From Polyangium spumosum (GTDB lineage Bacteria; Myxococcota_A; Polyangia; Polyangiales; Polyangiaceae): DNA of 64,000 bases. The position numbers and the translations under genes were made by a program. The notes under the pieces were generated by a model. The model was not told where the DNA came from. It saw nothing but the letters and a program-made list of their open reading frames with translations, and did no database searches. Location: contig NZ_WJIE01000002.1 of NCBI RefSeq assembly GCF_009649845.1, positions 558,001 through 622,000 of the forward strand, in the 5' to 3' direction. Position 1 is the stretch's first letter. Every line of letters begins with the position of its first letter. Below, one piece after another: positions 1,955-35,891 of this stretch.

Positions 1955-3319
1955 CTATTTGAGGATGGTCTCGCAGCCGACCTGGATGTCGACCTTCACG
2001 TCGGTGGCGGCGCCGAGGGACGTGCAGGCCTTGCCGAGGAGCTCGACCTTGCCGTCCGCGGTATAGTCCCAGCAGCCGTCCTGCGGGCAGAGATCCAGCG
2101 GATCCGTGCGCTTTTTCAGGTTCTGCGGCGCGCCGTCGAGCGTGATGTTCACGTTGACCTGGTTCTTGTCGATCTGCTCGCCGGGCGGCGGCGGGGGCAG
2201 GTCGTAGACGCAGCCGAGGGCCTTTCCGCGGACGTCGGCGATGGCGTTCGCCAGGGTGTCGGCATTGAAGGCCGCGCCGCTCGAGAGATCGATGTGGCAA
2301 GGTTTGGCGGGGGCGGCCCCTGCCTCCGAGAAGACCGCCTCCTTGTCGCAGGTCGGATCCACCGTGTCCGGCGAGCCGCTGACGGCGTACGTCGAGAGCG
2401 CGAGCAGCATGTTGTAAGGCGGCGTGTCGAAGCCGTCGACCTTCGCGCCCGTGCTGTTCGAGCCAGGCACGCCCACGATGAACGTGAAAATGGGCTTGCT
2501 CGGATCGGTGCGGGCGGCCGTGATGAGGTCGTTCACGCTCTTCGGTTTTTCCCAGTCCGGACAACCATTGAGATCCTGGTACCCCTCGCGCGCCGGGCTC
2601 GCGACGGACGTGCACGAGAAGCCGCCGTCCGTGATCAAGACGAGCATGCGCCGCTCGATGTTCTCGGATTTCAAGGACGCATACCCAGCCTGGAGCGCGT
2701 CGTAAATGGGCGAGCCGTCGTCGACGTTGCTGAGCGGCGGGTGGCTGACGAGCCAGTCGTACATCTGCCGCCGCACGCCCGTCGCCGCGTTCGTCTTCTC
2801 CAGACCCGCCGGAGCCACCGGGACCTGCGGCAGGAACGAAAAGCCACACGAGACGCCGCCGATGAACTGCTTGCAGAGCTCGTAATCGAGCCCCTGGCAC
2901 AAGCACAGGGGCGGATCCGTCAGGCTCGCGGGGAACACCGTCAGGCCGAGCGACATCGTGTCGAAGACGTCCTTGTCGATTGCAGATTTGATCGCGAGCT
3001 GCGCCGTCCCCCATTTGGACTGCTTGTTCATGCTGGCGCTCGCGTCGAGCACGGTGAGCATGGCCGCGGGCGCCTGCTGGGCCTCGGCCGTGAACTTCGC
3101 GCAAGCCGGGCCCCCGCCGCCCACGCCGCCGCCACCGGGCCCGACGGGCCCGGGCCCGATCGACCCGCCATTGCCCGATCCACCCGATCCCCCCTCGCCT
3201 CCCTCGCCCCCGCCGCCCGGGAGGTTGCCGCCCCCCGCCGCGCAGCCCCCGCCGAACCCGATTCCCATCGAAAGGCCAAGCCCCACGCTCACACCGAGCC
3301 ACCGCAGAAAGCGCGCCAT
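1955..3319 (-). CDS. von Willebrand factor A domain lipoprotein
   Basis: A 454-residue secreted lipoprotein. The N-terminus is a signal peptide ending in a Gly-rich lipobox with Cys (GGGCAAG), then a 45-residue linker made almost only of Gly, Pro, Ser and Glu, typical of myxobacterial surface lipoproteins. A VWA domain follows: the MIDAS motif DASAS begins the domain (VLDASASMNKQ), and a later ITDGGFSC supplies the second metal-site segment. Several Cys pairs (LCLCQ, CKQF, CDKEAVF, CPQDGC) suggest disulfides outside the cytoplasm. VWA domains bind protein partners through a metal ion. The ATG at 3319 is chosen because AGGAGGAAACG directly precedes it; in-frame starts upstream lack a ribosome site. 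It diverges from the GHKL gene at 3514. Confidence 0.85.
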   Translation of the reverse strand: MARFLRWLGVSVGLGLSMGIGFGGGCAAGGGNLPGGGGEGGEGGSGGSGNGGSIGPGPVGPGGGGVGGGGPACAKFTAEAQQAPAAMLTVLDASASMNKQSKWGTAQLAIKSAIDKDVFDTMSLGLTVFPASLTDPPLCLCQGLDYELCKQFIGGVSCGFSFLPQVPVAPAGLEKTNAATGVRRQMYDWLVSHPPLSNVDDGSPIYDALQAGYASLKSENIERRMLVLITDGGFSCTSVASPAREGYQDLNGCPDWEKPKSVNDLITAARTDPSKPIFTFIVGVPGSNSTGAKVDGFDTPPYNMLLALSTYAVSGSPDTVDPTCDKEAVFSEAGAAPAKPCHIDLSSGAAFNADTLANAIADVRGKALGCVYDLPPPPPGEQIDKNQVNVNITLDGAPQNLKKRTDPLDLCPQDGCWDYTADGKVELLGKACTSLGAATDVKVDIQVGCETILK

Positions 3320-3513
3320 CGTTTCCTCCTCAGTCGTAAGGGAAACGACCAGAGCGTAACAGATGCCACATCTCGAAATCGACCACGACGAGCGGCACGA
3401 AGAACGAAATGGGCGGACGACAGCTCCACGCCCAGAACACAAGCCAAAGAGAACGCTCGGCGCGGTCTCCCCCCCTTGCGCGCGAGGTAACTTGGCCCAC
3501 CATTGTTTGCTCG

Positions 3514-5232
3514 ATGGCGACGGCACGCAGCGCTCCGGACTCCACGCCCCTCGGGACGCCTCCGGCCGAGCAATCGGCGCACGCAGGGCCGTTCACGAGG
3601 ACGCACGTCGATCTCGCCGCGGCCCGCGCGAGCTCCATGGCCCGCGGCGGCGTGCGGGAGGGCGAGCTCTGCTTCCTCGGCTCGCTGCACGAGCTCGTGG
3701 CCATCGGGCTCTACCGGCCCGCGCTCTCGGCCCTCGTCTCGGGCACTGGCTCACCCGCGCGTCCGCCGATGGACCGATCCTACCTGCTCAAGATCCTCGA
3801 TGAGGAGGTGGGCCGGCAGTTCGGTCACCCGCTCCGGCCCGTGGTCGAGCTCGTGCTCAACGGGATCGACGCGACGCCCGAGCACCCCGCGCGCGTGGAC
3901 GTGCGCGTCCGCGAGGGCGTGGTGACCGTGAACGACGACGGGATCGGCATGGATCTGCGCGCGATCCTGTCGAGGCTCCTCGTGCCGTTCGCCACCGACA
4001 AGCGGCCCGGCGTGGACCTCGGGCGCTTCGGCGTGGGCTTCTTCTCGGTGATCGGCCTCGGCTTGCCCGATCCTTCGAGCCTGTCGATCGACGTGGAGAC
4101 GGGCGACGGCGCGTCGGGTTGGTCGCTCTCGGTGCTCGCCGACGGGCCGGAGCCCTCGTCGCTGGTCTGCGCGATCCGCAAGCTCACGCCTCGCGCAGGG
4201 ACACGCGTGCAGGTGCGATCGTCGCTGCTCGAGGCCGAGCCGCTACGCGCCTACCTGCGCGACGCGCTGCACTTCTTCCCGAAGGAGCGCGCGCTCGTGA
4301 ACCTCGACGGCGTGCCGGTGAACGACGGCCGTTACCTCGCGGGAGGCTCGCTCTTCTCGGACGCGCTCTCGCCCGACGATCCGAGCCGGCTCGCGCGCTT
4401 CTACGTGGGCGGCCGCGCGCTCGTGACGGGCATCAGCGCCGCGACGTACCACGCGGGCGTGAAGGTCGAGGGTTGCCTCGCGATCCCGGAGCTCGCGCTC
4501 ATCGACTTCCCGTCGGCCGTGGAGCTCACCGAGGGGCGCGACGCGCTCAAGCCGTGCCGCACCTTCCGCGCGACGGCGGCGGCGTTCTACCGCAAGCTCG
4601 TGGACCTCTCGCGCGCACCGGGGGCGAACCGCAAGACGTGTGATCGCCTGGCCGAGGTGGCCGCGCAGATCAGCGCGCTCATGCTGCAGTCGGCCGCGTG
4701 GAGCGAGGTCGCGCCCGAGCTCGCGCGCGCCTTGCTCGGCCCCGATCGGTACCTCGTCGGCCCCGAGCGACGCGAGCCGCTCATCGGCTTCCTCGGCGGC
4801 AACGTGGAGAACCGGCTCTTCGTGCCCGAGAGCTTCTGGGCCGAACGCGAGTGGCAAGGGTACGTCCCCGGGGAGCGGGAGCTGCTCGCGCGCGAGCTCG
4901 AGATCGATCACGCCGAGAGCCTGTCGAGCCTCGCGCGGCGTCGCCCCGATCTGCCGGGGATCGTCGAGCTCGCCCGTCGATCCGAGCGGCCCGAGGCCGT
5001 CCCGGTGGCGCTCGCGCGTGGCCGCAAGAGCGCGCCGGGCCCGCTGCCTTGCCTCGGGACACGCCACGCGTTGCTCGTGCGCGAGGACGCTCCCGCGGTC
5101 TCGCGCCGCGTGGGCTGGGCCGAGCACTACGCGCTGCGCGTCGCGTTTGATCGCGCGACGGGCATGCGTGAGCCGGATCTGGAGCGCGAGCTTATCGTCA
5201 GCGAGCCCATCGGGGTCACGGGGGCGGTGTAG
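3514..5232 (+). CDS. GHKL (Hsp90-type) ATPase domain protein, first of a tandem pair
   Basis: A 572-residue protein. A GHKL/Bergerat ATP-binding fold lies in residues about 85-260: N-box ELVLNGIDA (Asn116, Asp119), G1 box NDDGIGMD (Asp142), a linker LVPFATDK that matches the Hsp90/MutL lid region, and G2 box GRFGVGFFS (170-178). It is not a histidine kinase (no H-box) and not full Hsp90. The following 300 residues are soluble and unrecognised, probably a transducer-like domain and an effector or scaffold part. The gene is followed 48 bp later by a second GHKL protein of similar N-terminal architecture, so they are likely co-transcribed and may act as a heteromer. The ATG at 3514 is preferred over an earlier in-frame start at 3409 on coding character only; a start at 3637 (MARGG) is possible. 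Confidence 0.75.
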   Translation: MATARSAPDSTPLGTPPAEQSAHAGPFTRTHVDLAAARASSMARGGVREGELCFLGSLHELVAIGLYRPALSALVSGTGSPARPPMDRSYLLKILDEEVGRQFGHPLRPVVELVLNGIDATPEHPARVDVRVREGVVTVNDDGIGMDLRAILSRLLVPFATDKRPGVDLGRFGVGFFSVIGLGLPDPSSLSIDVETGDGASGWSLSVLADGPEPSSLVCAIRKLTPRAGTRVQVRSSLLEAEPLRAYLRDALHFFPKERALVNLDGVPVNDGRYLAGGSLFSDALSPDDPSRLARFYVGGRALVTGISAATYHAGVKVEGCLAIPELALIDFPSAVELTEGRDALKPCRTFRATAAAFYRKLVDLSRAPGANRKTCDRLAEVAAQISALMLQSAAWSEVAPELARALLGPDRYLVGPERREPLIGFLGGNVENRLFVPESFWAEREWQGYVPGERELLARELEIDHAESLSSLARRRPDLPGIVELARRSERPEAVPVALARGRKSAPGPLPCLGTRHALLVREDAPAVSRRVGWAEHYALRVAFDRATGMREPDLERELIVSEPIGVTGAV

Positions 5233-5280
5233 CCGAACGAGCCTCGTCGGCGCGGCTCAGGGGGAACTGGGGGGGAACCG

Positions 5281-7392
5281 ATGACCGAAGTCTACGCTGG
5301 CCGTCTCTCGGACCTCTTGCTCGTGCGCGTGCACGGCCGCTCTTCGGCCTACCTCGCGGCGAGCCGCGCGTCCCGCCCGGGCATCGTGGAGGCCTGCCGC
5401 AGAGAGGCGACGGTGCCCGACCTCGCCGAGCGGATCCTCTCCCGCACGATCTACGCGCAGAGCGCCACGCGTATCGCGCCGCTGCGCGAGCTCGTGCAGA
5501 ACGCGCTCGACGCCTCGCCGCGCGGAGCTGCGATCGACGTGCAGTCGGGGCTCGGCGGCACCGAGATCATCGTGACCGATCGTGGCCGCGGCATGACCGC
5601 CGACGAGGTCCTCGGGGATCTGCTCGTCCCGTTCCGCAGCGGCAAGGAGGGCGAGGATCTCGCGATCGGCGAGCACGGCATCGGCTTCTTCAGCGCGCTC
5701 GAGATCGCGCCGCGCCTCGAGGTGAAGACACGCACGCGCACCGAGGGCCACCTCCTGCGCGTCGAGCCGCTCGGCAAGGGCCCGCCCTACAACGACTTCG
5801 CCTGGTCGCTCCGCCCGCTGCCGCACGTCGAGGGCTGGACGGGCACGTCCGTGAGGCTCCTGCTCGACGAGCCGATCAGCCGCTCCGTCCTCGCGTCGGA
5901 GGTCGCCGCGGCCGCGTCGTTCGTCGATCCCGCCGTCGCGCGTATCTACGTCGACGGTGTGCTCATCAACGTCGCCCGCACGCGGATGCGCCGCGTCGCG
6001 CGCGCGCAGGTCGGCGGCCTGCACACGGGGCCCATGGGCGAGCTCTCCATCTGGGTCGGCCGCGGCGACGGCGCCTTGCCGCACGTCACGATCACCCAGC
6101 GAGGCCTGCTCGTCGCGGTGAGGCAGGACCTCTTCACCGCGCCCGAGCTCTCGCTGCACCGCGACCTCGCGCGGGCGATCGTGTCGGCGGGCTTCGGCAT
6201 CGTCGTCGAGCTCCCCGCCGAGGTGCCGCTCAACAAGGGGCGCTCGGCGCCAGCGGCGCACGCCGCGGCGGCCGTCGAGTCGGCGCTCATCGCGGCGTTC
6301 GAGCGCTTCGTCTTGCACGACGCGCTCTACGATCGGGAGCTGCTCCGCGCCGTGGATCATCGGCTCTCGTCGGTCCTCGATCGCCTGCTCTGCGCGGCGC
6401 TCGCGGGCCAGCCCACGCAGCCTGCGGCGGCGAGCGCGCCCGAGGAGCTCACGGAGACCCCGCGCACGGCCAGGGCCGCGACGATCCTGCCGCCGCCGCT
6501 CTCGATGCCGCCCGAGTCCGAGCGTCGCCAGAAGCGCCCCACGGTGGCCGCGCCCGAAGAGGTCGTGCGTTTCGCGGACGCCTTGCTCGACACGCCGGCG
6601 CTCCGGGTGCTCAGCATCGACGACGAGCACGAGCAGCACCCGCGCATCGTGACCTTGCGACACCTGCTCGTCGCGTATCGCGCGGGCACGCTCCGGCCGA
6701 TGGGTGAGCCGCTGCGGCCGGGCCTCACGTACGTCTCGCTCGACGATCCGCTCGCGGACGCGCTCTGGCGGCGGCTCGTCGCGACCTCGGCGGCGGCGGC
6801 GGCGGCGAGCTCGCAGGATCGACGAGGCCGGCGTGTGGGTGCGCTCGCGATGCAGCGCATCGATCGGGAGACGCTTCTCGCGACGGCGAAGGCGGTGCCG
6901 GGCGTCGACGCGCTCGCGGCTGCGATGACGGTGCTCGAGGGGATCGACGCGGCGATCTCGATCGCGGCGGAGCTCACGCCCTCGCCGGTCTCGGTGCACC
7001 AGGATCTTTATGGCCCGGACGAGATGGCGCACACGGACGGCAGTGGCATCAGCGTGAACCTCGCCTCGGCGCGGGTGCGGGCGCTGCTCGTGTCGGTGCT
7101 CCAGCAGGACGATCCGGCGGCGTTCGGGGCGCTCGTGGATCTGATGCTGCACGAGAAGACACACGTCTCCTTGGCGAGTTACGTCCCGCACGCCAACGCC
7201 GAGCACGGAGCGAGCTTCTATCGGCGGAAAGATCTCCTGCGACGACGCCTGCTCGAGGCGATGTCGAAAAACATCGTCGGAGATCCTGCTTCGTGGTTGC
7301 CAGCCGCAAGGCGTGGACTTTCGTCGGTCTGCCTACCTGCGCCCGACCTCTTGGCGGCCACGTTCCAGGCGCTCCCGCCGGTCGCTGCCTGA
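5281..7392 (+). CDS. GHKL ATPase fused to an HExxH minigluzincin-like protease domain
   Basis: A 703-residue protein. Residues about 45-250 form a GHKL ATPase: N-box ELVQNALDA (Asn74, Asp77), G1 TDRGRGMT (Asp100), LVPFRSGK, G2 GEHGIGFFS (130-138). A transducer-like stretch follows (250-360) and a disordered Pro/Ala linker around 380-420. The C-terminal part (about 560-690) carries LMLHEKTHVSL with HEKTH at 624-628 and, 13 residues later, EHGASFY (641-647). HExxH followed by H-G-x-x-F is the zinc-ligand pattern of SprT/YgjP-type minigluzincins, so His624, His628 and His642 are the predicted zinc ligands and Glu625 the catalytic base. An ATP-gated protease is the inference. The preceding gene has the ATPase but no HExxH. 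The GGGGGGAACCG leader before ATG 5281 is a weak ribosome site. Confidence 0.75.
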   Translation: MTEVYAGRLSDLLLVRVHGRSSAYLAASRASRPGIVEACRREATVPDLAERILSRTIYAQSATRIAPLRELVQNALDASPRGAAIDVQSGLGGTEIIVTDRGRGMTADEVLGDLLVPFRSGKEGEDLAIGEHGIGFFSALEIAPRLEVKTRTRTEGHLLRVEPLGKGPPYNDFAWSLRPLPHVEGWTGTSVRLLLDEPISRSVLASEVAAAASFVDPAVARIYVDGVLINVARTRMRRVARAQVGGLHTGPMGELSIWVGRGDGALPHVTITQRGLLVAVRQDLFTAPELSLHRDLARAIVSAGFGIVVELPAEVPLNKGRSAPAAHAAAAVESALIAAFERFVLHDALYDRELLRAVDHRLSSVLDRLLCAALAGQPTQPAAASAPEELTETPRTARAATILPPPLSMPPESERRQKRPTVAAPEEVVRFADALLDTPALRVLSIDDEHEQHPRIVTLRHLLVAYRAGTLRPMGEPLRPGLTYVSLDDPLADALWRRLVATSAAAAAASSQDRRGRRVGALAMQRIDRETLLATAKAVPGVDALAAAMTVLEGIDAAISIAAELTPSPVSVHQDLYGPDEMAHTDGSGISVNLASARVRALLVSVLQQDDPAAFGALVDLMLHEKTHVSLASYVPHANAEHGASFYRRKDLLRRRLLEAMSKNIVGDPASWLPAARRGLSSVCLPAPDLLAATFQALPPVAA

Positions 7393-8018: not shown

Positions 8019-8495
8019 ATGGGTCTCATCCAAGAAGTCGCTCAGACCCACAGGCCGATTCTGGGGAACGACATTCCGTTGTTGGTCTTTCGCGTGTTCC
8101 GTCACTTCTCCGCGGGTTACGTGGAGGAGGTGCTGGGGCGCGGGGCGGCGGTCGTTTTCCAGAACGGTGGTAGGGAGCTCGGCAAAGAAGCCGGCCAGAT
8201 GCTGTACAAGCCGAACACGGACGATTACCTCAAGGAGGTCGTCCAGTTCGTGCGCGACTCACGAATCGGCATTCTCATCCCCCGCCAGCTCGACGACAAG
8301 CTTCTCGTGGTGGACCTGGACGAGTGCATCACCTGCGCGGGCATGGCGAGCATTTCGAAACGCATTTGCCACTTCGAGGTCGGCTTCGTCGCTGGGATCA
8401 CCGAGATCCTCATCAAGAAGAAGCCGAAGGCGTACGAGACGAAGTGCGGCGCCAATGGCGAAGGCACCTGCCAGGTGACGGTCGAATTGGGCTGA
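8019..8495 (+). CDS. V4R (4-vinyl reductase) domain protein
   Basis: A 158-residue cytoplasmic protein that is essentially one V4R domain. The family signature is visible: a DECITCAG motif (Cys103, Cys106), ICHFEVGFVAGITEIL (Cys117) and ETKCGANGEGTCQV at the end (Cys143, Cys151). V4R domains bind small hydrophobic ligands and, through these Cys/His residues, probably a metal; they occur in bacteriochlorophyll enzymes, XylR-type regulators and TRAPP-related folds. Standing alone at the head of a signalling operon it is more likely a sensor than an enzyme. GAGGTG at 8008-8013 gives a ribosome site 5 nt before the ATG. The following roadblock gene suggests a TRAPP/roadblock-like partnership, an inference from fold class. 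Confidence 0.85.
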   Translation: MGLIQEVAQTHRPILGNDIPLLVFRVFRHFSAGYVEEVLGRGAAVVFQNGGRELGKEAGQMLYKPNTDDYLKEVVQFVRDSRIGILIPRQLDDKLLVVDLDECITCAGMASISKRICHFEVGFVAGITEILIKKKPKAYETKCGANGEGTCQVTVELG

Positions 8496-8500
8496 ACGAC

Positions 8501-8522
8501 GCCGCCACGACGATGTGGCGGC
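8501..8522 (+). repeat. Perfect hairpin between the V4R and roadblock genes
   Basis: GCCGCCAC (8501-8508) and GTGGCGGC (8515-8522) form an 8-bp perfect stem with a 6-nt loop, 5 bp after the V4R stop. No T-tract follows, so it is more likely an mRNA-end-stabilising or attenuating hairpin inside the operon than a full terminator. Confidence 0.5.
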
Positions 8523-8681
8523 CTCGCCCTCGCCGTATCTCCCCTGGGCCTCGCGAGAGAAGTGGCCCAGGTTCGTGGGAGAGACGTGCGAGAGGACAGG
8601 ACATGTCCCGGACGCGGCGCCCGGGTTGAATCATGAGCTCGAGGACGTCCTCGGGCTCGGCTTGCCCGCACAGGAGGAGAC

Positions 8682-9056
8682 GTGGCAGCTGGAAGTCGAG
8701 TCGAAAAAATCCAGGAAATTCTTCGCAATCTTCGTTCGGTATCGCCCGACATCATCGGGTCGGCGATGGTGAGCACCGACGGCTTCATCATCGCCTCGCT
8801 GCTCCCGAACGAGATCGACGAAGAGTTGGTGTCCGGTATGGCCGCCGCGTTGCTCGGTGTCGGTGAGCGTATCGCTCATGAGCTCATGGGAGGCGCCATG
8901 GAGCAGACGTACGTGCGTGGCCGCCAGGGGTACGTCATCCTGAATGCGGTCGGCGCGGATGCGCTGCTGATCGTGCTGACGACGCCCGACGCGAAGCTCG
9001 GCCTCGTGTTCCTCGACATTCGCCGTCGCGTGACCGAGCTGGCGAAGATCGTATGA
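8682..9056 (+). CDS. Roadblock/LC7 domain protein (MglB-like)
   Basis: A 124-residue single-domain roadblock/LC7 protein. The pattern fits: an N-terminal helix VEKIQEILRNLR, strand-turn GSAMVSTDGFIIAS, the long helix EIDEELVSGMAAALLGVGERIA, then the antiparallel strands YVILNAVGADALLIVLT and a C-terminal helix. In myxobacteria such proteins (MglB) are GTPase-activating partners of the Ras-like polarity switch MglA, and others scaffold signalling complexes. No small GTPase lies in this window. GTG 8682 is chosen because AGGAGGAG (8672-8679) precedes it. It is the second gene of the operon, with a 186-bp gap after the V4R gene. Confidence 0.85.
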   Translation: MAAGSRVEKIQEILRNLRSVSPDIIGSAMVSTDGFIIASLLPNEIDEELVSGMAAALLGVGERIAHELMGGAMEQTYVRGRQGYVILNAVGADALLIVLTTPDAKLGLVFLDIRRRVTELAKIV

Positions 9057-9073
9057 CGGCGGCCTGAATCGTT

Positions 9074-9781
9074 ATGGCATCCACGACAGGAAACGCTCGG
9101 CTGGCACTGGGGGGGCTCTTGCTCCTCGGCATCGCGGATCTCGGGCTGATCAACCTCAAGCTCGCGCCCGAGTACGCCGAGGAGCAGGCGAAGCAGTCCC
9201 ATGTGCCTGGGGCTCGGCCGGAGGGGACGACCTCGGCGAAGGCCTCGGCGCCTCGGCCTCCGGCCACTCCGACCCCGAGCGTCGCCGTCGCGCCGCCTCC
9301 GCAACCGACCCCCACGCCCGAGCCGCCGAACGCGGCCCCCGAGCCCACGGCGACGACCTCCGCGCTGCCGGTGGTCTCGGCGGTCGCGACGACTCCGCCG
9401 GCCCCCACGGCGGAGCCTCCGCCGGCGCCCGTGGTCTCCACGGGCAAACCCGCGGCGGTCTCCGACATCCTCTTCGAGATCGATTCGAACCTCTTGACGT
9501 TGTCGTCCAAGAGCACGCTCGACGAGGTCCTCAAGCAGCTGAAGGCGAACCCGAGCCTGCGCATCCACCTCCGGGGGCATTCGGATCAACTCGGATCGCG
9601 CGAGCACAACCTGGAGCTCAGCCGCAAGCGCGCCGCGGCGGTGGAGAACTTCTTCCACGCGAACGGCATCCCGCACTCCAGGATCACGACCGAGGCCGTG
9701 GGCGGCATGAAGCCCGCGGATCCCACCAACACCCCGACGGCCTGGGCCCGAAACCGGCGCGTCGAGATCGAGTGGCGGTAG
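9074..9781 (+). CDS. OmpA-like peptidoglycan-binding protein with membrane anchor
   Basis: A 235-residue protein. Residues about 8-30 form a single uncleaved-looking transmembrane segment (LALGGLLLLGIADLGLINLK), followed by a Pro/Ala/Thr-rich linker of roughly 90 residues that could span periplasm. Residues 129-235 are an OmpA C-terminal domain: it opens with ILFEIDS, has the peptidoglycan-contact segment HNLELSRKRAAAVENFF and closes with NRRVEIEW. It should tie the inner membrane to the cell wall, as MotB and similar proteins do. It begins 17 bp after the roadblock gene and precedes a second membrane-anchored protein, so the operon seems to build an envelope-anchored signalling assembly. Confidence 0.85.
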   Translation: MASTTGNARLALGGLLLLGIADLGLINLKLAPEYAEEQAKQSHVPGARPEGTTSAKASAPRPPATPTPSVAVAPPPQPTPTPEPPNAAPEPTATTSALPVVSAVATTPPAPTAEPPPAPVVSTGKPAAVSDILFEIDSNLLTLSSKSTLDEVLKQLKANPSLRIHLRGHSDQLGSREHNLELSRKRAAAVENFFHANGIPHSRITTEAVGGMKPADPTNTPTAWARNRRVEIEWR

Positions 9782-9800
9782 CCGAGGACTTGAGGAAGGA

Positions 9801-11555
9801 ATGGACCTGATCCAATCGATATGGCTTTCTTCCGCGGCAGGGGCCGGGCTGTTTTTCGGGGCCGGCCTGCTCGTGAGCAGGGCGTTCCCTTCGAAGGACG
9901 GCGCCGCCGCGGATCCGAGCCTCGTCCAGGCCGAGAAAGAGGCACGCCAGCAAGCAGAGGCCCAGCTTGCGGCCTTGCAGCAGCAGAACGCCGAGCTCTC
10001 GCGTTCGGCCACCGAGTCCGCGGAGCGAGCGCGCGCCGAGGCGTCGCAGAAGGCCCAAGGTGAGGCGCAGCGGCTCCGCGAGCAGGTGAACCAGCTCCAG
10101 GCGGAGGTGAACCGCGCGAAGGCCGCGGCGAGTGGTCCATCCCCCGCGGAGGCGCAACTTCGCCAGGAGAACGCCGATCTGCGGCAACGCTTGGCCGCGG
10201 CCGATCAGGCCGCCCAGGCGCTGCAAGCCGAGCGCGCGCGCGCCCACGACCTCGAGCAACGGCTGCAAGCTGCGATGGCGCAGGCGCAGGCGGGGCGCGG
10301 GGACGACGGCGCGCGGCAGGATCTCGAGCGCCGCCTCGCCGAGGCGAACGCCCAGGTGCAGGCCGCGCAGGCGCAGGCCCAGCAGCTCCGCGCTTCGGCG
10401 CAGCGGGCCGAGCAGCTCGCGGCCGAGAACGCGCAGCTCAAGACGCGCCAGGGTGGCTCGGACAAACTCTCGGCCGAGCTCTCGACCGAGAAGGCCAAGG
10501 TGGCGCAGCTCCAGCAGCAGGTCGCGGCGCTGCAGAAGACGGCCGAAGGCACGAGCAAGCTCGCGCAGGACATCCAGGCGGAGAAGGCCAAGGTGCGCGA
10601 CCTCGAGCAGAAGCTCGCGGCGGCGCAGAAGTCCACGGGCGACTCGGGCAAGGTCTCGCAGGAGCTCACGGCCGAGAAGGCCAAGGTGGCGCAGCTCCAG
10701 GCGCAGATCGCCACGCTGCAGCAGGCCGCGAACGAGGCGGCGAAGCTCGGCATGGAGCTCGGTGTCGCGCGCTCGAAGGTGCAGGACCTCGAGGCGAAGC
10801 TCAAGAACGCTTCGTCGGGCGGCGGCGCGAGCACGGCCGAGGTCGATCGCCTGCGCGGCGAGATCGACGTGCTCAAGCGCTCGGCGATCTCGCCGAAGGA
10901 GCACGAGGCGCTGCAGAAGAAGACCACGGATCAGGCGGTCCGGATCCGCGTCCTCGAGCAGAAGGCCGCGGAGCTCGACTACTACTCGAACGAGAACAGC
11001 GACCTGCGCAGGCGTCTCGAGGAGCTCGAGGCGATCGCGCTCGAGGCGAAGCAGATGCGCCGTCGCATCATCGACCTCGAAGCGCAGGCCTTCGCCATGA
11101 CGGCGGCGCGCTCCATGGAGAAGGCTCCGCCGAGCGTGGCGCCGGCCAGCCAGGCGCCGATCAGCTTCCGCAACTCGGACAAACGCCTGGAGACGCTGCT
11201 CGAAGAGGGCATGAGCTCGCTGCTCCGCGAGGAGACGGGCGGGCGCGCGGTCGTGCTCGCGGATACGCGCGGCCTCGTGATCGCGGCGGCAGGCGAGGTT
11301 CGTTATCAGAACGAGCTCGCGGCCGCGGCCTCGGTCGTCTCCGAGGTGAGTGATCGGATGAGGAGCCTCCTGCCGATCGCCGAGCCGCACATCGTCCACA
11401 TCCTCGACGTGAACAACGTGGTCATGCGGACGCGGTGGCTGCGATGGGAAGACGAGACGCTCGCGCTGAGCGTGCTCGGCTTCCGCGACGAAGCGCCGGA
11501 TCCGGCCGAGGAGAAGGTCGTGAAGACGGTGACCAAGCTCTTTGGTTACGGTTGA
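9801..11555 (+). CDS. Membrane-anchored long coiled-coil protein with C-terminal roadblock-like domain
   Basis: A 584-residue protein. A short N-terminal transmembrane helix (about residues 8-27) is followed by roughly 400 residues of Ala/Glu/Gln/Lys-rich coiled coil with internal repeats; the core AEKAKVxxLxxQ recurs at least three times between residues 215 and 320. The last 120 residues (from about 465) are globular: RLETLLEEGMSSLLREETGG, then VVLADTRGLVIAAAG, an Ala-rich helix with SEVSDRMRSLLP and strands HIVHILDVNN and TLALSVLGF. This is the layout of a roadblock/LC7 fold. The inference is a rod that holds a roadblock domain away from the membrane, able to pair with the roadblock protein encoded at 8682. 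It lies 19 bp after the OmpA-like gene. Confidence 0.75.
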   Translation: MDLIQSIWLSSAAGAGLFFGAGLLVSRAFPSKDGAAADPSLVQAEKEARQQAEAQLAALQQQNAELSRSATESAERARAEASQKAQGEAQRLREQVNQLQAEVNRAKAAASGPSPAEAQLRQENADLRQRLAAADQAAQALQAERARAHDLEQRLQAAMAQAQAGRGDDGARQDLERRLAEANAQVQAAQAQAQQLRASAQRAEQLAAENAQLKTRQGGSDKLSAELSTEKAKVAQLQQQVAALQKTAEGTSKLAQDIQAEKAKVRDLEQKLAAAQKSTGDSGKVSQELTAEKAKVAQLQAQIATLQQAANEAAKLGMELGVARSKVQDLEAKLKNASSGGGASTAEVDRLRGEIDVLKRSAISPKEHEALQKKTTDQAVRIRVLEQKAAELDYYSNENSDLRRRLEELEAIALEAKQMRRRIIDLEAQAFAMTAARSMEKAPPSVAPASQAPISFRNSDKRLETLLEEGMSSLLREETGGRAVVLADTRGLVIAAAGEVRYQNELAAAASVVSEVSDRMRSLLPIAEPHIVHILDVNNVVMRTRWLRWEDETLALSVLGFRDEAPDPAEEKVVKTVTKLFGYG

Positions 11556-11634
11556 CGTTGAGACCGCGGGGGTGGCGCGAGCGGCGTAGCAGGATCATTC
11601 CACGCGCTTCCGCTGCGCCTCCCTCCCCGAAACC

Positions 11635-12660
11635 ATGAGGAAGAACCGCCCCAACGTGCCGTTTTCATCGGGGACCACCCTGCTCGACGAGATCGGGGTG
11701 GGTGTCGTGATCGTGGACGAGGGGGGCGAGGTCGTCGTGACGAACCGCGTCGCCGACGACCTGATCACGCGCCGCGCCGGCGGCTCCTCCCTGCTCAACA
11801 AGATCTTCGAGCATGTAGAAAACGAGCTCGGGCGCGACGGCCCGCAGCGCACGAAGGAGCTCACGGTCGAGGCCTTCGACGACGCGGGCAACAAGACCAT
11901 CGTCGGCTACCGCCTCATCCGATCGAACCGGCTCGGGACGATCATCTCCATGCACGACGTCACGGAGACCGAGCGCTTCCAGGCCGAACGAAGGCAACTC
12001 GAGCGGCTCAGCGAGGTCGGCAAGGCCTGCGCGATGGTCGCGCACGAGATCGGCAACCCGCTCGCGGCGATCAAGGCGACCATCCAGTCCATCGAGCACG
12101 AGGCCGCCGAGGCCGGGCTCGGCGACTCGCTACACGCGGTCAACCGCGAGATCGACCGGCTGAACAACATGCTCGGCCAGCTCCTCGGCTTCGTGCGCCA
12201 CAGGCCGCCCCGGCGCAGCAAGGCGGAGCTCGCGAGCATCGTGAACCGCGCGCGCGGCGCGGCCGAAGGGCGGCTCAACAACATCCACTTCAGCACGCGG
12301 TACGGCCTGCTCCGCCCGCTCTGGGTCGATCAGGATCAGCTCCAGCAGGTCCTCCTGAACCTCTTCATCAACGCGGCCGACGCGATGCCGGAGGGCGGGG
12401 AGCTGAAGGTCTACGCGGGCATCGAGGACGAGCGGATGGTCCTGCGTGTCGAGGACACGGGCAGCGGGATCCCCGAGGAGATCGTCGACAAGGTCTTCGA
12501 CTCGTTCTTCACGACCAAGCCCACGGGTACGGGGCTCGGGCTCTCGATATGTTATCGAATCGTGACCGACCACGGTGGTGCGATCACGATCGGCGGACGG
12601 AGCGGAAACGTCTCGGGGACGTGCGTCACGATCACGTTGCCCATCATGACCGGCAGGTAG
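11635..12660 (+). CDS. Soluble PAS-type sensor histidine kinase
   Basis: A 341-residue kinase without membrane segments. Residues about 14-115 form a PAS-like sensor (GVGVVIVDEGGEVVVTN). The HisKA dimerisation domain carries the phospho-acceptor in CAMVAHEIGNPLAAIK (His137), and the HATPase domain shows the N-box LLNLFINAADAMPEGG (residues 240-255), DTGSGIP (274-280), the F-box FDSFFTTKPTG and GTGLGLSI. It autophosphorylates on His and probably passes the phosphate to the response regulator whose gene starts 7 bp downstream. It is the fifth gene of the operon; an 80-bp gap separates it from the coiled-coil gene. Confidence 0.9.
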   Translation: MRKNRPNVPFSSGTTLLDEIGVGVVIVDEGGEVVVTNRVADDLITRRAGGSSLLNKIFEHVENELGRDGPQRTKELTVEAFDDAGNKTIVGYRLIRSNRLGTIISMHDVTETERFQAERRQLERLSEVGKACAMVAHEIGNPLAAIKATIQSIEHEAAEAGLGDSLHAVNREIDRLNNMLGQLLGFVRHRPPRRSKAELASIVNRARGAAEGRLNNIHFSTRYGLLRPLWVDQDQLQQVLLNLFINAADAMPEGGELKVYAGIEDERMVLRVEDTGSGIPEEIVDKVFDSFFTTKPTGTGLGLSICYRIVTDHGGAITIGGRSGNVSGTCVTITLPIMTGR

Positions 12661-12667
12661 AACAGCC

Positions 12668-13813
12668 ATGGCTCAGCGACGCCACAGAGTGCTGATCGTC
12701 GACGACGAGGACGGGATCGTCCTCGCCCTCCATCGGTTCCTTTACCAGGACAACCATCGTTACGACGTCCTCCTGGCGAAAAACGCCGAGGTCGGGCGGC
12801 AGATCCTGCGCGAGACGCCGATCGACGTCCTGGTGACCGACGTCCACCTGCCCGGCATGAGCGGCATGGACCTCGTCTGCTGGGCCGCGGTGGAGACGCC
12901 GGACACGCGCGCGATCGTGATGACCGCGTTCGACGTCGCCACGATCCGCGACAAGGCGCATGCGGTCGGCTGCCTCAAGCTGATGCGCAAGCCCTTCGAT
13001 CTGCACGAGCTGCGCGCGGCGCTCCTGCAGGCCATGGAGACGCGCGACAGCCTGCTCGGCAGCCTCTCCGAGCTCTCGGCGGTCGACGTCATCCAGATGC
13101 TCTGCCTCGGCCGCAAGACGACGGCGCTGCGCATCGCGCGCGGCCAGGTCTCGGGCGTGATCCTCATCCAGAACGGCGACATCGTGCACGCCGTCTGGGA
13201 CAACATCGTCGGCGAGGAGGCGGTGCACGAGATGATCGCGGTCGAGGACGGCGTCTTCAACATGGCGCCGTTCCCGCCGGACTTCGAGCGCACGATCACC
13301 GGCGACTACCAGCACATCCTCATGGAGGGCGTGCGCAAGCTCGACGAGAAGGCGCGCTTCGGACCGTCCGACGACGACGCGCCGCGGCCCTCGGTGCGGC
13401 CCGGTCGCATCACGCAGCAGCAGGGCAGCAAGGACGACTGGGACTTCGGCCCGGACCCGGGCTTCCAGCAGAAGGCGCAGATCCCGACGAACGCGCGGAT
13501 GCGCCTCGACGCGCTGAACGCGCCGCCGGTGCCGCGTGACCTCTCCTCGTCGCAGCACTTCGCGCCGCCACCTCCCCCGCCTCCCCCGCCGCCGCCGCCG
13601 CCGCCGCCCGAGGAGACGCCCGAGGAGATCGCCGCGCGCCTCAAGGAGAAGGAGGTCGCGTCGCTCATGGATCAGGGCTTCACGGCGCTACGCAACGGCC
13701 AGCGCGAGGACGCGCGCAAGTTCTGGCAGCAGGCGCTGGAGCTCGATCCGGGCAACCGCCGCATCGAGCTCAACCTGAAGAAGCTCGATCAGGATCCCTC
13801 GAAGCGATTCTGA
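12668..13813 (+). CDS. Response regulator with PATAN (DUF4388) and TPR domains
   Basis: A 381-residue protein with three parts. Residues 1-125 are a receiver: acidic pair Asp12/Asp13, phospho-acceptor Asp58 (VTDVHLPGMSG), Thr86 and Lys108 (MRKPF). Residues about 128-205 match the PATAN/DUF4388 domain (GSLSELSAVDVIQMLCLGRK, then a VILIQNGDIVHAVWD hairpin), a module of myxobacterial and Deinococcus signalling proteins. After a disordered linker with a run of 16 Pro (300-315) comes one TPR-like helical pair (330-375). There is no DNA-binding domain, so output is probably by protein contact. It follows the kinase gene by 7 bp and ends the operon before a strong terminator. Confidence 0.9.
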   Translation: MAQRRHRVLIVDDEDGIVLALHRFLYQDNHRYDVLLAKNAEVGRQILRETPIDVLVTDVHLPGMSGMDLVCWAAVETPDTRAIVMTAFDVATIRDKAHAVGCLKLMRKPFDLHELRAALLQAMETRDSLLGSLSELSAVDVIQMLCLGRKTTALRIARGQVSGVILIQNGDIVHAVWDNIVGEEAVHEMIAVEDGVFNMAPFPPDFERTITGDYQHILMEGVRKLDEKARFGPSDDDAPRPSVRPGRITQQQGSKDDWDFGPDPGFQQKAQIPTNARMRLDALNAPPVPRDLSSSQHFAPPPPPPPPPPPPPPPEETPEEIAARLKEKEVASLMDQGFTALRNGQREDARKFWQQALELDPGNRRIELNLKKLDQDPSKRF

Positions 13814-16115: not shown

Positions 16116-16218
16116 CAGGGCACATCCTATCCAGGTTCGGGGCGGATGGCGCGAGGTTCCGGCGTCCCCTGACCCGCTGGGGGGTTGAGGCCTGCCTGAC
16201 ATGCTAAGACGGTCCGCC

Positions 16219-18237
16219 ATGACCGTCCTTCAGGTCTCCGGTCTCGGCTTCGGCTACGGCGCCAATCAGCTCTTTCAGGGGGTGACGTTCTCGATCGCCC
16301 TCGGGGAGCGGGCCGCGCTCGTGGCGCCGAACGGCGCAGGAAAATCCACGCTTTTGCGGCTGATCGCGCGCGAGCTCGTGCCCGACGCGGGCTCGGTGGT
16401 GATCAAGCGCGGGACGCGGGTCGCGTACGTCCGGCAGTCGCACGAGCTGCCGAAGGTCGGCACGGTGCTCGAGGCGTTCCTGTCTGGTTTCGAGGAGATC
16501 CTCGGCTTGCGGAGGGAGCTCGACGAGGCGTCCCACGCGGCCGCGAGCGGGACGAAGGAGGCGCTCGACAGGCTGGCGAATGTTACGGATCGGTACCATC
16601 TCGCGGGTGGGGACACGCTGGAGCGGCGGATCGAGATGCTGGCCTCGCACCTCGGCTTCTCGCACGAGGACATGGGCCGCGCGCTCGGGAGCCTCTCGGG
16701 CGGCGAGCGCGGGCGTCTGCACCTCGGCGTGGCGCTGGCGAACGAGCCGGATCTGATCCTGCTCGACGAGCCGACGAATCACCTCGACATCGAGACGATC
16801 TCGTGGCTGGAGCGGCACCTCGCGGGGCTCTCGAGCGCGATGCTGGTGGTCTCGCACGATCGCGCGTTCCTCGACGCGCTCTGCCCGATCACGATGGAGC
16901 TCGGGCGGCGGAGCTTCCGCGTGTATCCGCTCTCGTACTCGCGGTACGCGGAGGCGCGAGAGGAGGACCTCGAGCGCGAGCGCGAGCTGGCGGAGCGACA
17001 GGAGGCGTTCGTCGCGAAGACCGAGGAGTTCATCCGGCGCAACATCGCGGGGCAGAAGACGAAGCAGGCGCAGAGCCGGCGGAAGATGCTCGACAAGCTG
17101 GAGACGATCGACCGGCCGGAGGACGTGTGGGCGCGCGCGGAGAAGGTGGCCTTCCGCTTCGTGCAGGCGCCGCGCAGCGGGGACATCGTGCTCGACGCGC
17201 GGGGGCTCGCGGCGGAGCGAGGCGGTCGGCAGCTCTTCTCGGGCTTCGATCTGCTCGTGCGGCGCGGCGAGCGGATCGGGGTCCTCGGGCCGAACGGGTG
17301 TGGCAAGTCGACGCTCTTGAAGATCCTCGCGGGCCGCGGCGCGGAGGAGGACGAGGGCGAGGTCAAGCGCGGGACGAACCTCTGCGAGGGATACTTCGAT
17401 CAGCACCTCGGCTCGCTCGATCCGAACAAGACGGCGGTCGACGAGATCCGCAGCGTGCGCGGGGACATGAACGTGGACGCCGCGCGGCAGTACCTCGCGC
17501 GGTTCCGGTTCTACGGCGACGACACGTTGCGGAAAGTCGAAGGCTTCTCCGGAGGAGAACGCAGCCGCCTCGCCCTCGGAAAGCTCCTGCTCGAGCCGCG
17601 CAACCTCCTGTTCCTCGACGAACCGACGAACCACCTCGACATCCCGGCGGCGGAGATCCTCGAGGAGGCGCTCGCGAGCTTCGAGGGATCGGTGCTGCTC
17701 GTCTCGCACGATCGCCGCTTCCTCGACGCGGTGACCACGCGGATCTGCGCGTTCTCGGGCGGCAAGATCGAGCTCTTCCCCGGCGGATACCGTGACTTCC
17801 AGGCGAGTTTGTCCCGGCCGAGCGTCGCGCCCGAGGAGGACGGCGAGGCGAACGGGGACGAGCGGTCCCTGGAGGACGGACGATCGAAGCGCGCGGTGAA
17901 GCGGAGCGCGTCGACGGTGCTGACGCAGGCGAAGGGGCCGGAGTCGCCGCTCGACAAGAAGCGCGCGTTCGAGGCGGAGAAGGCGGCGTCGCGGGCGCTC
18001 GAGCGGAAACGAAAACGCGTGAAGGAGCTCGAGGAGGAGATCGCGAAGGGCGAGGCCGAGCTCGGGCGCATGCGCGAGGCGCTGAAGGGGGACCCGGGCG
18101 GCGACTGGGAGAAACTCGCGAAGATGGTGGCCGAGGAGCAAGCGCTCGCGAAGCGCGTGGACGCGGCGATGACGGAGTGGATGACGCTCGGCGAGGAGCT
18201 CGCGGCCGAGGACGTGCAGCAAGGGAGGACGGCGTGA
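16219..18237 (+). CDS. ABC-F family ATPase, Uup-like
   Basis: A 672-residue cytoplasmic protein with two ABC ATPase domains and no membrane domain. The first shows Walker A APNGAGKSTLL, signature LSGGERGRL and LLDEPTNHLD; the second shows GPNGCGKSTLL, FSGGERSRLALG and LFLDEPTNHLD. A charged inter-domain linker (P-site tRNA interaction motif region, AEREEAFVAKTEEF-like) lies around residues 250-300. A C-terminal coiled coil (about 580-665, rich in Lys/Glu with LDKKRAFEAEKAASRALERK) resembles the Uup C-terminal DNA-binding domain. ABC-F proteins act on the ribosome E-site; Uup is also linked to replication-fork and transposon excision phenotypes. ATG 16219 is preferred; ATG 16201 is in frame and possible. 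The last 4 bases overlap the next gene. Confidence 0.9.
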   Translation: MTVLQVSGLGFGYGANQLFQGVTFSIALGERAALVAPNGAGKSTLLRLIARELVPDAGSVVIKRGTRVAYVRQSHELPKVGTVLEAFLSGFEEILGLRRELDEASHAAASGTKEALDRLANVTDRYHLAGGDTLERRIEMLASHLGFSHEDMGRALGSLSGGERGRLHLGVALANEPDLILLDEPTNHLDIETISWLERHLAGLSSAMLVVSHDRAFLDALCPITMELGRRSFRVYPLSYSRYAEAREEDLERERELAERQEAFVAKTEEFIRRNIAGQKTKQAQSRRKMLDKLETIDRPEDVWARAEKVAFRFVQAPRSGDIVLDARGLAAERGGRQLFSGFDLLVRRGERIGVLGPNGCGKSTLLKILAGRGAEEDEGEVKRGTNLCEGYFDQHLGSLDPNKTAVDEIRSVRGDMNVDAARQYLARFRFYGDDTLRKVEGFSGGERSRLALGKLLLEPRNLLFLDEPTNHLDIPAAEILEEALASFEGSVLLVSHDRRFLDAVTTRICAFSGGKIELFPGGYRDFQASLSRPSVAPEEDGEANGDERSLEDGRSKRAVKRSASTVLTQAKGPESPLDKKRAFEAEKAASRALERKRKRVKELEEEIAKGEAELGRMREALKGDPGGDWEKLAKMVAEEQALAKRVDAAMTEWMTLGEELAAEDVQQGRTA

Positions 18238-24682: not shown

Positions 24683-27600
24683 TCAGGCGCTCGCGAGCTC
24701 GTCCGCGAGGTCGCGCGCGGCGTCGAGGCTTGCATCTTCCGCGAGCGCCTTCTCGACGAGGAGGCGCGCCTTGCCGCTATCACCTTGCGCAGCCGCGAGC
24801 CTCCCGAGGTGGAAATACGCGAGCGCGCGGCCACGCGACGTCGTGCCCTCGGTCGAGCCCGGCGCCGTGATCTTCATCATCGTGACCGTCCGGAGGACAC
24901 GCGAAGCGACGTCGCCGTCGCCCCGATCCACCGCGAGCTGGCCGAGCTCGAGCGCGATGTCGGCGCTGCCCGCGTCATTGTCGAACGCCTTCGAGAGCTG
25001 CTCGAAAGCCACGTCGTCGTTGCCCGACGCGCGCTCGACGTGCGCGAGGGCGCGATGCGCCGCCGCGAGCGTCCTCGACCGACGACCCTCGTACGCAGCG
25101 ACGGCATTCGTGGCGAGCGGGCGCGCCTCGTCGACGCGACCCGCCGCGACATACGCCTCGGCCAGCACGATGACGGGATCCCACGCCTCCGGCGCCCGAC
25201 GACGAGCGTCCTCGACGAGCTCGACCGCAGCCGTCGCGCCCTCGGGCGACGCGAGGAGCACGCGCGCCGCGTGGAGCAGGAGCTCGACCGCCGCCGGGCC
25301 CTCGACGTTCGCCGCCGCCGAGGCGATCGACGCCGCCGCGAGCTGGTGATCGCCCATTTCACTTTGAGCCCCAACGAGCTCGGCGACGAGGGCGCGATCG
25401 AGCGGGTCGATGTCGAGCGCGCGCTTGAGGACCTCGATGGCGCCCGGGAGATCCTGCTCCTTGTCGCGGAGGATCGCGGCAGCCTTGCGGAGGCAGCCGA
25501 CGCGCTCTTCCTTGCCGGTCCGACCCTCGGCCTCGATCTGGTAGACCTCCGCGAGCTTGCGGAAATCCTCGCGGGCCTCGAAGCGCTGCCTGAGCGTGGC
25601 GCCGAGGACGGCGCTCGTCGGGAACGCGCGGTACCCCGCCTCGAGCGCGCGATCCACGCCGTCCTCGTCGCCCTGCTCGGCGCGCAGCGCGGAGAGCCGT
25701 TGCGCGGTCGCCTCCGCAGCCTCGCCCTTCTCGGCGCCGAGGAGCTTCTCGAGCGCATCCCCGAGCTCCGAGGGATCCTCGGCCTTCTCGCAGAGGCGTA
25801 CGATGGCGCGCAGCGCGTCGAGGTTGTTTGCGTCCCAATCGAGGATGCCCTGGTACGCGTCCCGGGCACGGCCCGCCTCGCCCTGCTGCTCGAGCAGCGC
25901 GCCGAGCTGCATGGAGAGCGACGCGACGGAAGCCGTGTCCTCGCGGTCCTTGGCGAGGTCGATACGACGCTCGAGGAGCGAGGCGAGATCGTCGACGCGG
26001 CCCGCGGCCGAGAGCAGGCCGGAGAGCACCCTGGCCGCCTCCTCGTTCGCCGGATCGTCGTCGAGGAGCTCGTGGAGGGTCGTGATCGCCTCGTCGGCGC
26101 CGCCTTCACGCTTCTGCGCGAGGCGCGCGCGTTCGAGGCGCATGCGCGAGCGATCCTCGACGGTCTCGAGCAGCGGGACGACCTGCTCGATGAGGCGCCC
26201 GAGGGCCTCGTCCTCGCCGAGGCTCCGGTAGAGATCGGCGAGCGGCCCCCAGAGGTCACGATCGGCAGGCTCACGCTCGAAGAGCTCGGCGTAGAGCTTC
26301 GCCGCGCCGGCCAGATCGCCGAGTTTGTCGCGAGCGATCGAGGCCGCCGTGAGCAGGTGCCCACGCTCGTCGCTGGGGTCGGCGACGCGGGCCGCGCGCT
26401 CTTCGAGGGCGCGCGCCTCGGCCCAGTCCTCGGCCGCAGCGCGCACCTTGGCGAGCGCGACGAGCGCCCACAGGTCGTCCGACATGTCGGAGACGCCCTC
26501 CTCGCGGGCGAGCGCGCGCCGCAGGACCGACTCGACGAGCGCCGCGTCGTCGAGGCCCTCGGCGACGGTGACGGCCTCGCGATAGAGGTCGACCCCGCGC
26601 TCGGGCGCGAGCAGGACGAGCGCGTCGACGAGGGCGCGGGGCCGCTCGTGCTGGCGCGCGAACCGCTCGAAGAGCGGGGCGATCAGGGGCGCGTTCTCGT
26701 CACGCTGGAGGCCGAGCCGGCAGATCGCCTCGGCACGATCGGGCGACGCGTCGAGCGAGAGAGCACGCTCGAGCGCGGGCACGCCACGCGCCGCGCCCCC
26801 CGGCTCGCGCAAGGCGAGCTCGGCGAGACGGTAGAGGCCATCGGCCAGCTCGGCAGGCGGAGCGCTCTCGCTCGCAGCGGCGATCCGCTTCTCGAGGATG
26901 GCGATCTGCCCCTCGCGATCGCCGCGCTGCTCGCAGGAGGCCTCGAGCGCGCGCCAGACCTCGTGGATCCGGCGATCCCCAGGCCGCTCGAGCAAGAGCA
27001 CCTCGGCGCGCCGGAACGCCTCGTCCGCCTGGGCCGCGTCGCCGCCCTCGCCCGAGAGCGCACGACCGAGGTGGAGGAGCAGATCGACGAGCGGAGGCTC
27101 GACCGTCGCCGCGGCGATGAGCTTGCGCAGGGCGTCGAGGTAACGATCCACCACGCCGAGGCGGCGAGCGAGCCCGAGCGCCGCGCGATGCGCGTCGGCC
27201 GAGGTCGGGCGCACGGAGAGGGCGCGGAGGTACAGGGAGAGCGCGTCCTCGGCGCGACCGAGGTGCTGCTCGTAGAGCGAGGCGAGCTCGGCGAGCAGGG
27301 GCGCAGAGGCCGCAGCGTCCGCGCCTGCGCCCTCGAGCCGGAGCTCGAGCGCGCGAGCGAGGAGCACGTGGTTCTGACGGCCGCGGAGCGCACGCACGAG
27401 CCTGTCGGCCTCGTCCGGGCTCTCGCGCGAGGCCTCGAACGCCGACTCCACGTGCTCGGCGGAGCGATCGGCGTCGCCCTGGCGATCGGCGATCTCCGCG
27501 AGCGCGATGAGCACCTCGGTCCGCGTGACGGCGGGGCTGCCCTGCTCGTCGCGCAGGCGCCGCACCATCATGAGGAGCGAGCGGTACGTGCGTTGCGCCC

Positions 27601-35716: not shown

Positions 35717-35891
35717 GTCCCTTCCCGAGCCGCCGGGGAAAATCGGCGCGGCCGAGAACGTATCAAGGATCGTTCGGACCGATCGCATTGATCTGAATCG
35801 TCCGAGGGCAAAATGTCGAAATGCAGCGGGAACCCGGGAGACCGGTCGGCCACCTCGCCTCCCGGGGTGGCCCCACGCGGGGGGCATGGGT

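Follow-up and report, generated by a model that had tools for sequence, protein, structure and literature searches.

Tandem Hsp90-like GHKL ATPases in Polyangium spumosum, one of them with a C-terminal SprT-like HExxH motif

Two consecutive genes in a 64,000-nucleotide stretch of the 10.76-Mb genome of Polyangium spumosum (contig NZ_WJIE01000002.1, positions 558,001 to 622,000; this whole stretch is called the window below) encode Hsp90-like GHKL ATPases, the second of which carries in its C-terminal domain an HExxH motif with the pattern and spacing of SprT-like peptidases. The first protein, P1, has 572 amino acids (3514..5232, + strand) and the second, P2, has 703 (5281..7392, + strand), with 48 bases between the genes. 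We favour, at about even chances, a reading in which the two form a two-subunit machine of the Hsp90 type, in which ATP cycling would gate a SprT-like zinc peptidase formed by the C-terminal domain of P2. To our knowledge, no ATP-dependent protease is driven by anything other than an AAA+ motor, and the chaperone Hsp90 cuts nothing. If the reading is true, P2 would represent a new way to couple ATP to proteolysis in a single polypeptide and a natural Hsp90 with a built-in enzyme, useful for learning what the Hsp90 cycle does to its client. Moreover, P2 is small enough for in vitro study.

Conserved motifs and structural models

The C-terminal domain of P2 (residues 524-703; 6850..7389, + strand), delimited by model elements from 524 to 696 and by profile matches in the order, contains HEKTH at 624-628 and HGASF at 642-646, the latter within AEHGASF at 640-646 (7150..7218, + strand, for the two motifs together). 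Conservation and the helices of the model point to H624, H628 and H642 (or E641) as putative zinc ligands and to E625 as the putative catalytic residue of this HEKTH-x13-HGASF arrangement. The first motif reads HE-K-[TA]-H in all 14 orthologous C-termini (the window and 13 further loci), and the HExxH-x13-HGxxF spacing is identical in the ten of them that were aligned; the corresponding gap in 25 SprT-like proteins of the class is 12-17 residues, mostly 13-14. A chance origin of the motif is ruled out by this conservation in orthologues together with its rarity in shuffled sequences: among 200,000 letter shuffles of P2, HExxH occurred in 5,539, and HExxH followed 6-22 residues on by HGxx[FYW], a pattern chosen after P2 had been seen, in 7. 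The stretch around HEKTH is the most conserved region of P2, with 54 of the 98 positions of the domain core (565-662) invariant among 13 sequences, against 94 of 235 in the N domain; over the entire C-terminal domain 64 of 180 positions are invariant, which is not above the ATPase domain. Within the genus, the ratio of nonsynonymous to synonymous substitution rates (dN/dS) of the C-terminal domain is 0.10-0.13. The longest invariant run in P2 across the 13 aligned sequences is HQDLYGPDEMAHTDG (residues 573-587; 6997..7041, + strand), which ends 36 residues ahead of HEKTH and may be a second functional site; we know of no counterpart of it in SprT-like proteins.

Both proteins carry a full set of Bergerat motifs. 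Those of P2 are ELVQN (70-74), DRGRGM (100-105) and GEHGIGF (130-136), located at 5488..5688 on the + strand, with E70, N74, D100, G102, G104 and G130-F136 invariant among nine aligned sequences; those of P1 are ELVLN (112-116), DDGIGM (141-146) and GRFGVGF (170-176). In the middle-domain motif PLNKGR of P2 (316-321; 6226..6243, + strand), K319, G320 and R321 are invariant across nine aligned sequences, and R321 presumably stands at the position of the catalytic-loop arginine of Hsp90. Pfam HATPase_c_3 matches P2 at 32.9 bits (cut-off 25, E 7.8e-08) and P1 at 24.0 bits, just under the cut-off of 25 (E 4.3e-05). Below their cut-offs, NCBIfam models name sacsin-type ATPases for both proteins and HSP90-family ATPases for P2. 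Pfam HSP90 (PF00183) is absent from the Pfam matches of both at E up to 1, and neither Pfam nor NCBIfam names a family outside the ATPase part of P1 or P2. The start codon of P1 at 3514 is uncertain, with other in-frame ATGs at 3409 and 3637 and with six of seven orthologues outside the genus aligning from about residue 48-52 only.

The model of P2 has a mean predicted local distance difference test score (pLDDT) of 73.7 and matches Hsp90 (Foldseek E 2.5e-11; VIA Z 16-17), including the N and middle domains of TRAP1 (VIA Z 17.1, 249 residues, root-mean-square deviation (rmsd) 3.9). VIA alignments also carry residues 38-664 of the model along 102-715 of TRAP1, C-terminal region included, at an rmsd of 15-17, which means that parts of the two proteins match and their arrangement differs. 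The ATPase part of the P1 model matches TRAP1 and GyrB at Z about 10. In the C-terminal domain of the P2 model, helix 542-562 is followed by strands 570-574, 583-585 and 590-593, by helix 597-608, by helix 612-632 with HEKTH inside it, and by helix 644-662, which starts just past the histidine of HGASF. This succession of strand, helix, HExxH helix and ligand helix is also that of SprT. By ten-residue blocks, pLDDT is 84-92 in 531-570, 67-75 in 571-590, 83-87 in 591-630, 49 in 631-640, 68 in 641-650 and 79-89 in 651-690. Fold searches with the whole P2 model name no zincin among the 50 matches listed in each; the named matches are mostly Hsp90, topoisomerase or rIIA-type ATPases, and since the ATPase part fills these lists, they are uninformative on the fold of the C-terminal domain. 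The original prediction, made from the letters of the window, had described adjacent GHKL ATPases of the Hsp90 type with complete Bergerat motifs, the second ending in a SprT-type ligand pattern and spacing; both open reading frames and all three motifs were located, the Hsp90 matches and the x13 spacing bear this description out, and HEKTH lies in a helix, as the prediction had demanded of a structural model.

SprT-like similarity, Hsp90-like alternatives and proposed mechanism

Compared with SprT-like proteins by hhalign, the C-terminal domain of P2 reaches a probability of 48-50% (0 of 60 shuffles as high), and three local profile runs, which differ in gap settings or shuffles, give Z 8.9, 6.4 and 4.5 (none of the 60, 100 and 80 shuffles, respectively, scoring as high); the semiglobal score is within the shuffles (12 of 60 as high). 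The SprT-like set comprises 25 proteins from 30 loci, filtered by HExxH, 6-30 residues and [HE]Gxx[FWY], and because of this filter agreement in the motif is partly built in, agreement in exact spacing not. Several observations weigh against a SprT-like peptidase in an Hsp90-type machine. Masking the five HExxH columns lowers the SprT score from 32.7 to 21.1 (Z 2.8) and shifts the best alignment to an unrelated four-residue stretch. For the window's P2, every Pfam match to the C-terminal domain falls short of its cut-off (WLM reaches 11.7 bits against 26, and Pfam SprT-like gives no match to this P2), and among ten such domains the best Pfam E-values are 0.0028 for DUF6187 (in one), 0.022 for SprT-like (in one) and 0.046 for WLM (in two). 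No solved-structure sequence matches the domain profile at E up to 10. Furthermore, pLDDT of the P2 model is below 50 in the loop 635-640 and at 126-134, the ATP lid, and about 68 at 641-650, which holds H642; the P1 model is poor (mean pLDDT 50.4); and the sister relation of P1 and P2 in the tree described below joins long branches. Judged from these alignments, the SprT-like similarity is carried by the motif, with no homology found beyond it, and P2 is best described as an Hsp90 variant whose catalytic signature is SprT-like, although the Pfam models of both families fail to recognise it.

The same C-terminal domain could instead serve dimerisation as in Hsp90 and hold a zinc site of structural or regulatory function without cutting proteins, its HExxH appearance being convergent, an account that we consider rather unlikely. 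The VIA alignment of P2 to full-length TRAP1, C-terminal region included, agrees with it, as does an hhalign comparison with the C-termini of HtpG (14 proteins kept from 27 loci by a motif and length filter), where the best stretch, of 12 columns, falls at the corresponding position (1 of 60 shuffles as high). With lenient gaps the HtpG alignment runs in step along the domain, but its Z of 1.1 (10 of 80 shuffles as high) is not significant; two other HtpG runs give Z 2.7-2.8 (0 of 60 and 1 of 100 as high), the latter on a short out-of-register stretch. A family of small Hsp90-like ATPases aligns weakly in the same register, but its scores are within the shuffles (26 of 60, 54 of 60, 82 of 100 and 55 of 80 as high). 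Between the C-termini of P1 and P2, shuffles scored as high in 2 of 60 and 1 of 60 cases locally and in 56 of 60 semiglobally. None of the C-terminal comparisons with HtpG, with the small family, with the giant proteins introduced below or between P1 and P2 is used as proof. A structural site would need neither the invariant E625 nor the SprT spacing, and both lie in the most conserved region of P2, which argues against this account.

In the favoured reading, P1 and P2 would be subunits of one Hsp90-type machine, most likely dimerising with each other, and each would bind and hydrolyse ATP in its N-terminal GHKL domain, the middle-domain arginine completing the ATP site. The C-terminal domain of P2 would occupy the place of the Hsp90 dimerisation domain, with H624, H628 and H642 (or E641) holding zinc and E625 activating water. 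The ATP-driven clamp cycle would present a client near this site or partly unfold it, gating the cutting, and P1, which has no protease site, would be the partner and regulator of P2. The function would probably be protein quality control or the processing of a particular client in Polyangiaceae, not phage defence. More tentatively, with chances clearly below even, a heterodimeric GHKL clamp may serve as protease motor instead of an AAA+ ring, with a peptidase at the position of the Hsp90 C-terminal domain, and a small Hsp90-like gene may have been duplicated in tandem in Polyangiaceae before one copy gained a SprT-like site. It is unlikely, although conceivable, that P2 is instead a switch protease that resembles signalling zincins, unfolds nothing and, upon ATP binding or client sensing, makes one or a few specific cuts (in P1, P2 or a regulator). 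Hsp90-type ATPases are slow clamps rather than threading motors, and the same operon supplies a ready partner in P1, both of which would suit such a switch; however, the only neighbours of the pair that recur outside the genus, in some genomes, are BrkB, VWA and ABC-ATPase genes, with no obvious substrate or regulator among the conserved ones.

P2 shares with Hsp90, HtpG and TRAP1 a GHKL N domain with the N-box glutamate, probably followed by middle and later domains in the same order, but differs from them in the HExxH of its C-terminal domain and in belonging to a tandem of two different subunits; P1 and P2 are further set apart by the missing Pfam HSP90 match and by their separation from HtpG in an unrooted tree. 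With the SprT-like peptidases (SPRTN, SprT) and WLM/Wss1, P2 shares the HExxH-x13-HGxxF spacing, but it lies below the Pfam cut-offs and is fused to a GHKL ATPase, not paired with an AAA+ one. According to the available parts of the respective papers, E112 of the HEXXH motif of SPRTN is catalytic and its activity zinc-dependent (PMC5127644), Wss1 and Spartan are grouped with the minigluzincins and the AAA ATPase Cdc48 is the partner of Wss1 (PMC4559962), and minimal zincin folds have been described (PMC3890501). The original prediction knew of no described bacterial counterpart of this arrangement, and no description of a GHKL-HExxH protein was found in the titles and abstract openings of the open-licence PMC papers listed, at most 10-15 per search; the words 'protease', 'metallo' and 'zinc' are absent from the main text, as available, of a GHKL review (PMC12733681). 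Searches of PMC for literature on Hsp90 paralogues in myxobacteria and on rIIA found nothing relevant.

Distribution, gene neighbourhood and the case for defence

Of 183 genomes of the order, 14 have a strong match to a profile of the C-terminal domain of P2, namely P. spumosum itself, five others of its genus, G070, G109, G130 and five of genus g47, and the next-best match in any genome of the order has an E of 0.008. P1 is strongly matched in 15 of the 183; in the additional genome (G167) no more than 72 residues of it are seen, where a contig ends. The C-terminal profile hit five of 377 sampled genomes of the phylum, all of the same family. Searched against 317 genomes of the class, a profile of full P2 found matches at E up to 1e-10 in 88, over the whole length in 13 of them and in one (G166) over the C-terminal part, at a contig end; the remaining matches cover the N-terminal part only, reaching about position 291 of 691 at most. 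Since few candidates were scored per genome (3 for full P2 in the class, 6-8 for P1 in the order and for the phylum sample, 18 for the C-terminal domain in the order), absences hold for these searches only. Four Polyangium contigs encode the C-terminus of P2 at 92-94% identity, as found by a scan with two very specific peptide patterns that would miss distant relatives.

P1 and P2 lie side by side on the same strand at all 13 loci with both genes on one contig (12 relatives and the window), in line with the co-occurrence that the original prediction had proposed to survey, and in G166 they are on separate contigs. The start of P2 overlaps the stop of P1 (ATGA) at all five non-Polyangium loci checked. 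Homologues lacking HExxH throughout would have told against that prediction; no orthologue of P2 was seen without the motif, although P1 and the other paralogues lack it. At all five other Polyangium loci the genes around the pair are conserved from BrkB to a Haem_oxygenas_2/cupin gene, the DoxX gene being unmatched at one of them (L064). Outside the genus, BrkB accompanies the pair at four Sorangium-genus loci and in G070, a VWA gene accompanies it in Minicystis, and the ABC-ATPase gene of the window (16201-18237) has its counterpart on the same stretch as the pair in Minicystis and at three Sorangium-genus loci. This conserved neighbourhood and the persistence of single neighbours fit a chromosomal pair that descends vertically, at a stable place, in some Polyangiaceae.

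The weakest of the rivals, which we regard as highly improbable, is a role in anti-phage defence or conflict, with the ATPase as sensor of infection and the protease as effector. It draws on GHKL-only matches to the defence families TmtA (P2, E 4e-09) and MzaB (P1, E 0.012) and on structural matches to phage rIIA; the best matching stretches in PADLOC defence proteins span 46-100 residues, all within the GHKL part. However, the neighbourhood is shared by the window and all five other Polyangium loci, with partial synteny in Sorangium, G070 and Minicystis, dN/dS is about 0.1, no relative was found in plasmids or viral contigs, and phages gave one GHKL-level match of 30% identity covering 13% of P2. 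These collections may omit records very near the window's genome, the plasmids and phages of other hosts being unaffected, and the lack of a full relative in them makes defence unlikely. Like P2, phage rIIA joins a GHKL ATPase to a separate C-terminal domain (PMC7824862), and many phage rIIA models match the P2 model. Nevertheless, the C-terminal domain of rIIA is described as highly variable in the available part of the same paper, whereas the core of that of P2 is its most conserved part, and rIIA genes are phage genes, whereas P2 is met in phages only as the single match above. A defence island or mobile element was rejected as the principal explanation on account of the stable chromosomal locus and the lack of a full mobile relative. 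Of the original interpretation, the Hsp90-type ATPase, the SprT-like pattern, its helix and the pairing stand, and the defence option falls with the chromosomal locus, the signs of vertical inheritance and the lack of a full plasmid, phage or viral relative.

Upstream of P1, a divergent gene (1955-3526) has a weak VWA match below cut-off, and its homologue adjoins P1 in Minicystis. Downstream of the pair, 8019-13813 holds V4R, Roadblock/LC7, OmpA, coiled-coil, histidine kinase and response-regulator (DUF4388, TPR) genes, a run that is conserved at all five other Polyangium loci.

Small Hsp90-like ATPases and giant proteins

In an unrooted tree of 57 sequences, from which the near-copies L063, L064 and L075 were left out, P1 and P2 are sister groups (support 95/90) and have 23 small Hsp90-like ATPases from the order as neighbours, HtpG standing apart. 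These small Hsp90-like or sacsin-type ATPases of Polyangiales (NF010683, NF047352) are the closest relatives found outside the pair, and their alignment, which leaves out L058 (the same protein as L028) and L053 (cut), matches HtpG over 494 columns at an hhalign probability of 99.6%. Among 24 distinct proteins of this kind none has HExxH in or after the ATPase part; L027 has it only ahead of the ATPase, and L053 is interrupted by a contig end. Unlike P1 and P2, the small ATPases adjoin a gene for a giant uncharacterised protein, at all ten loci examined.

One of these loci lies in the P. spumosum genome itself (L166:3344-10146), the others being L167-L175. The giant of L166 (1,695 amino acids) is similar to each of the other nine at E 2e-25 or lower; called lengths range over 1,695-2,535 amino acids, some of the longest calls extending across the ATPase gene in a different frame. 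Scans of three giants found nothing in Pfam at E up to 0.05 and, for one of them, an NCBIfam match below cut-off. By eye, the N-terminus of the L166 giant resembles a degenerate GHKL domain, and the C-termini of the giants match those of the small ATPases (hhalign probability 79%; local Z 7.4, with none of 80 shuffles scoring as high); small ATPase and giant are perhaps a sacsin-like two-gene system. Against P2, the giant C-termini align over 62 columns in register at an hhalign probability of 0.1%, and the scores of the P2 C-terminal domain against them are within the shuffles.

Elsewhere in the window, a 3,734-amino-acid open frame with TPR repeats (Pfam) occupies 24683-35887 on the - strand and is overlapped almost fully by a 3,668-amino-acid open frame on the + strand.

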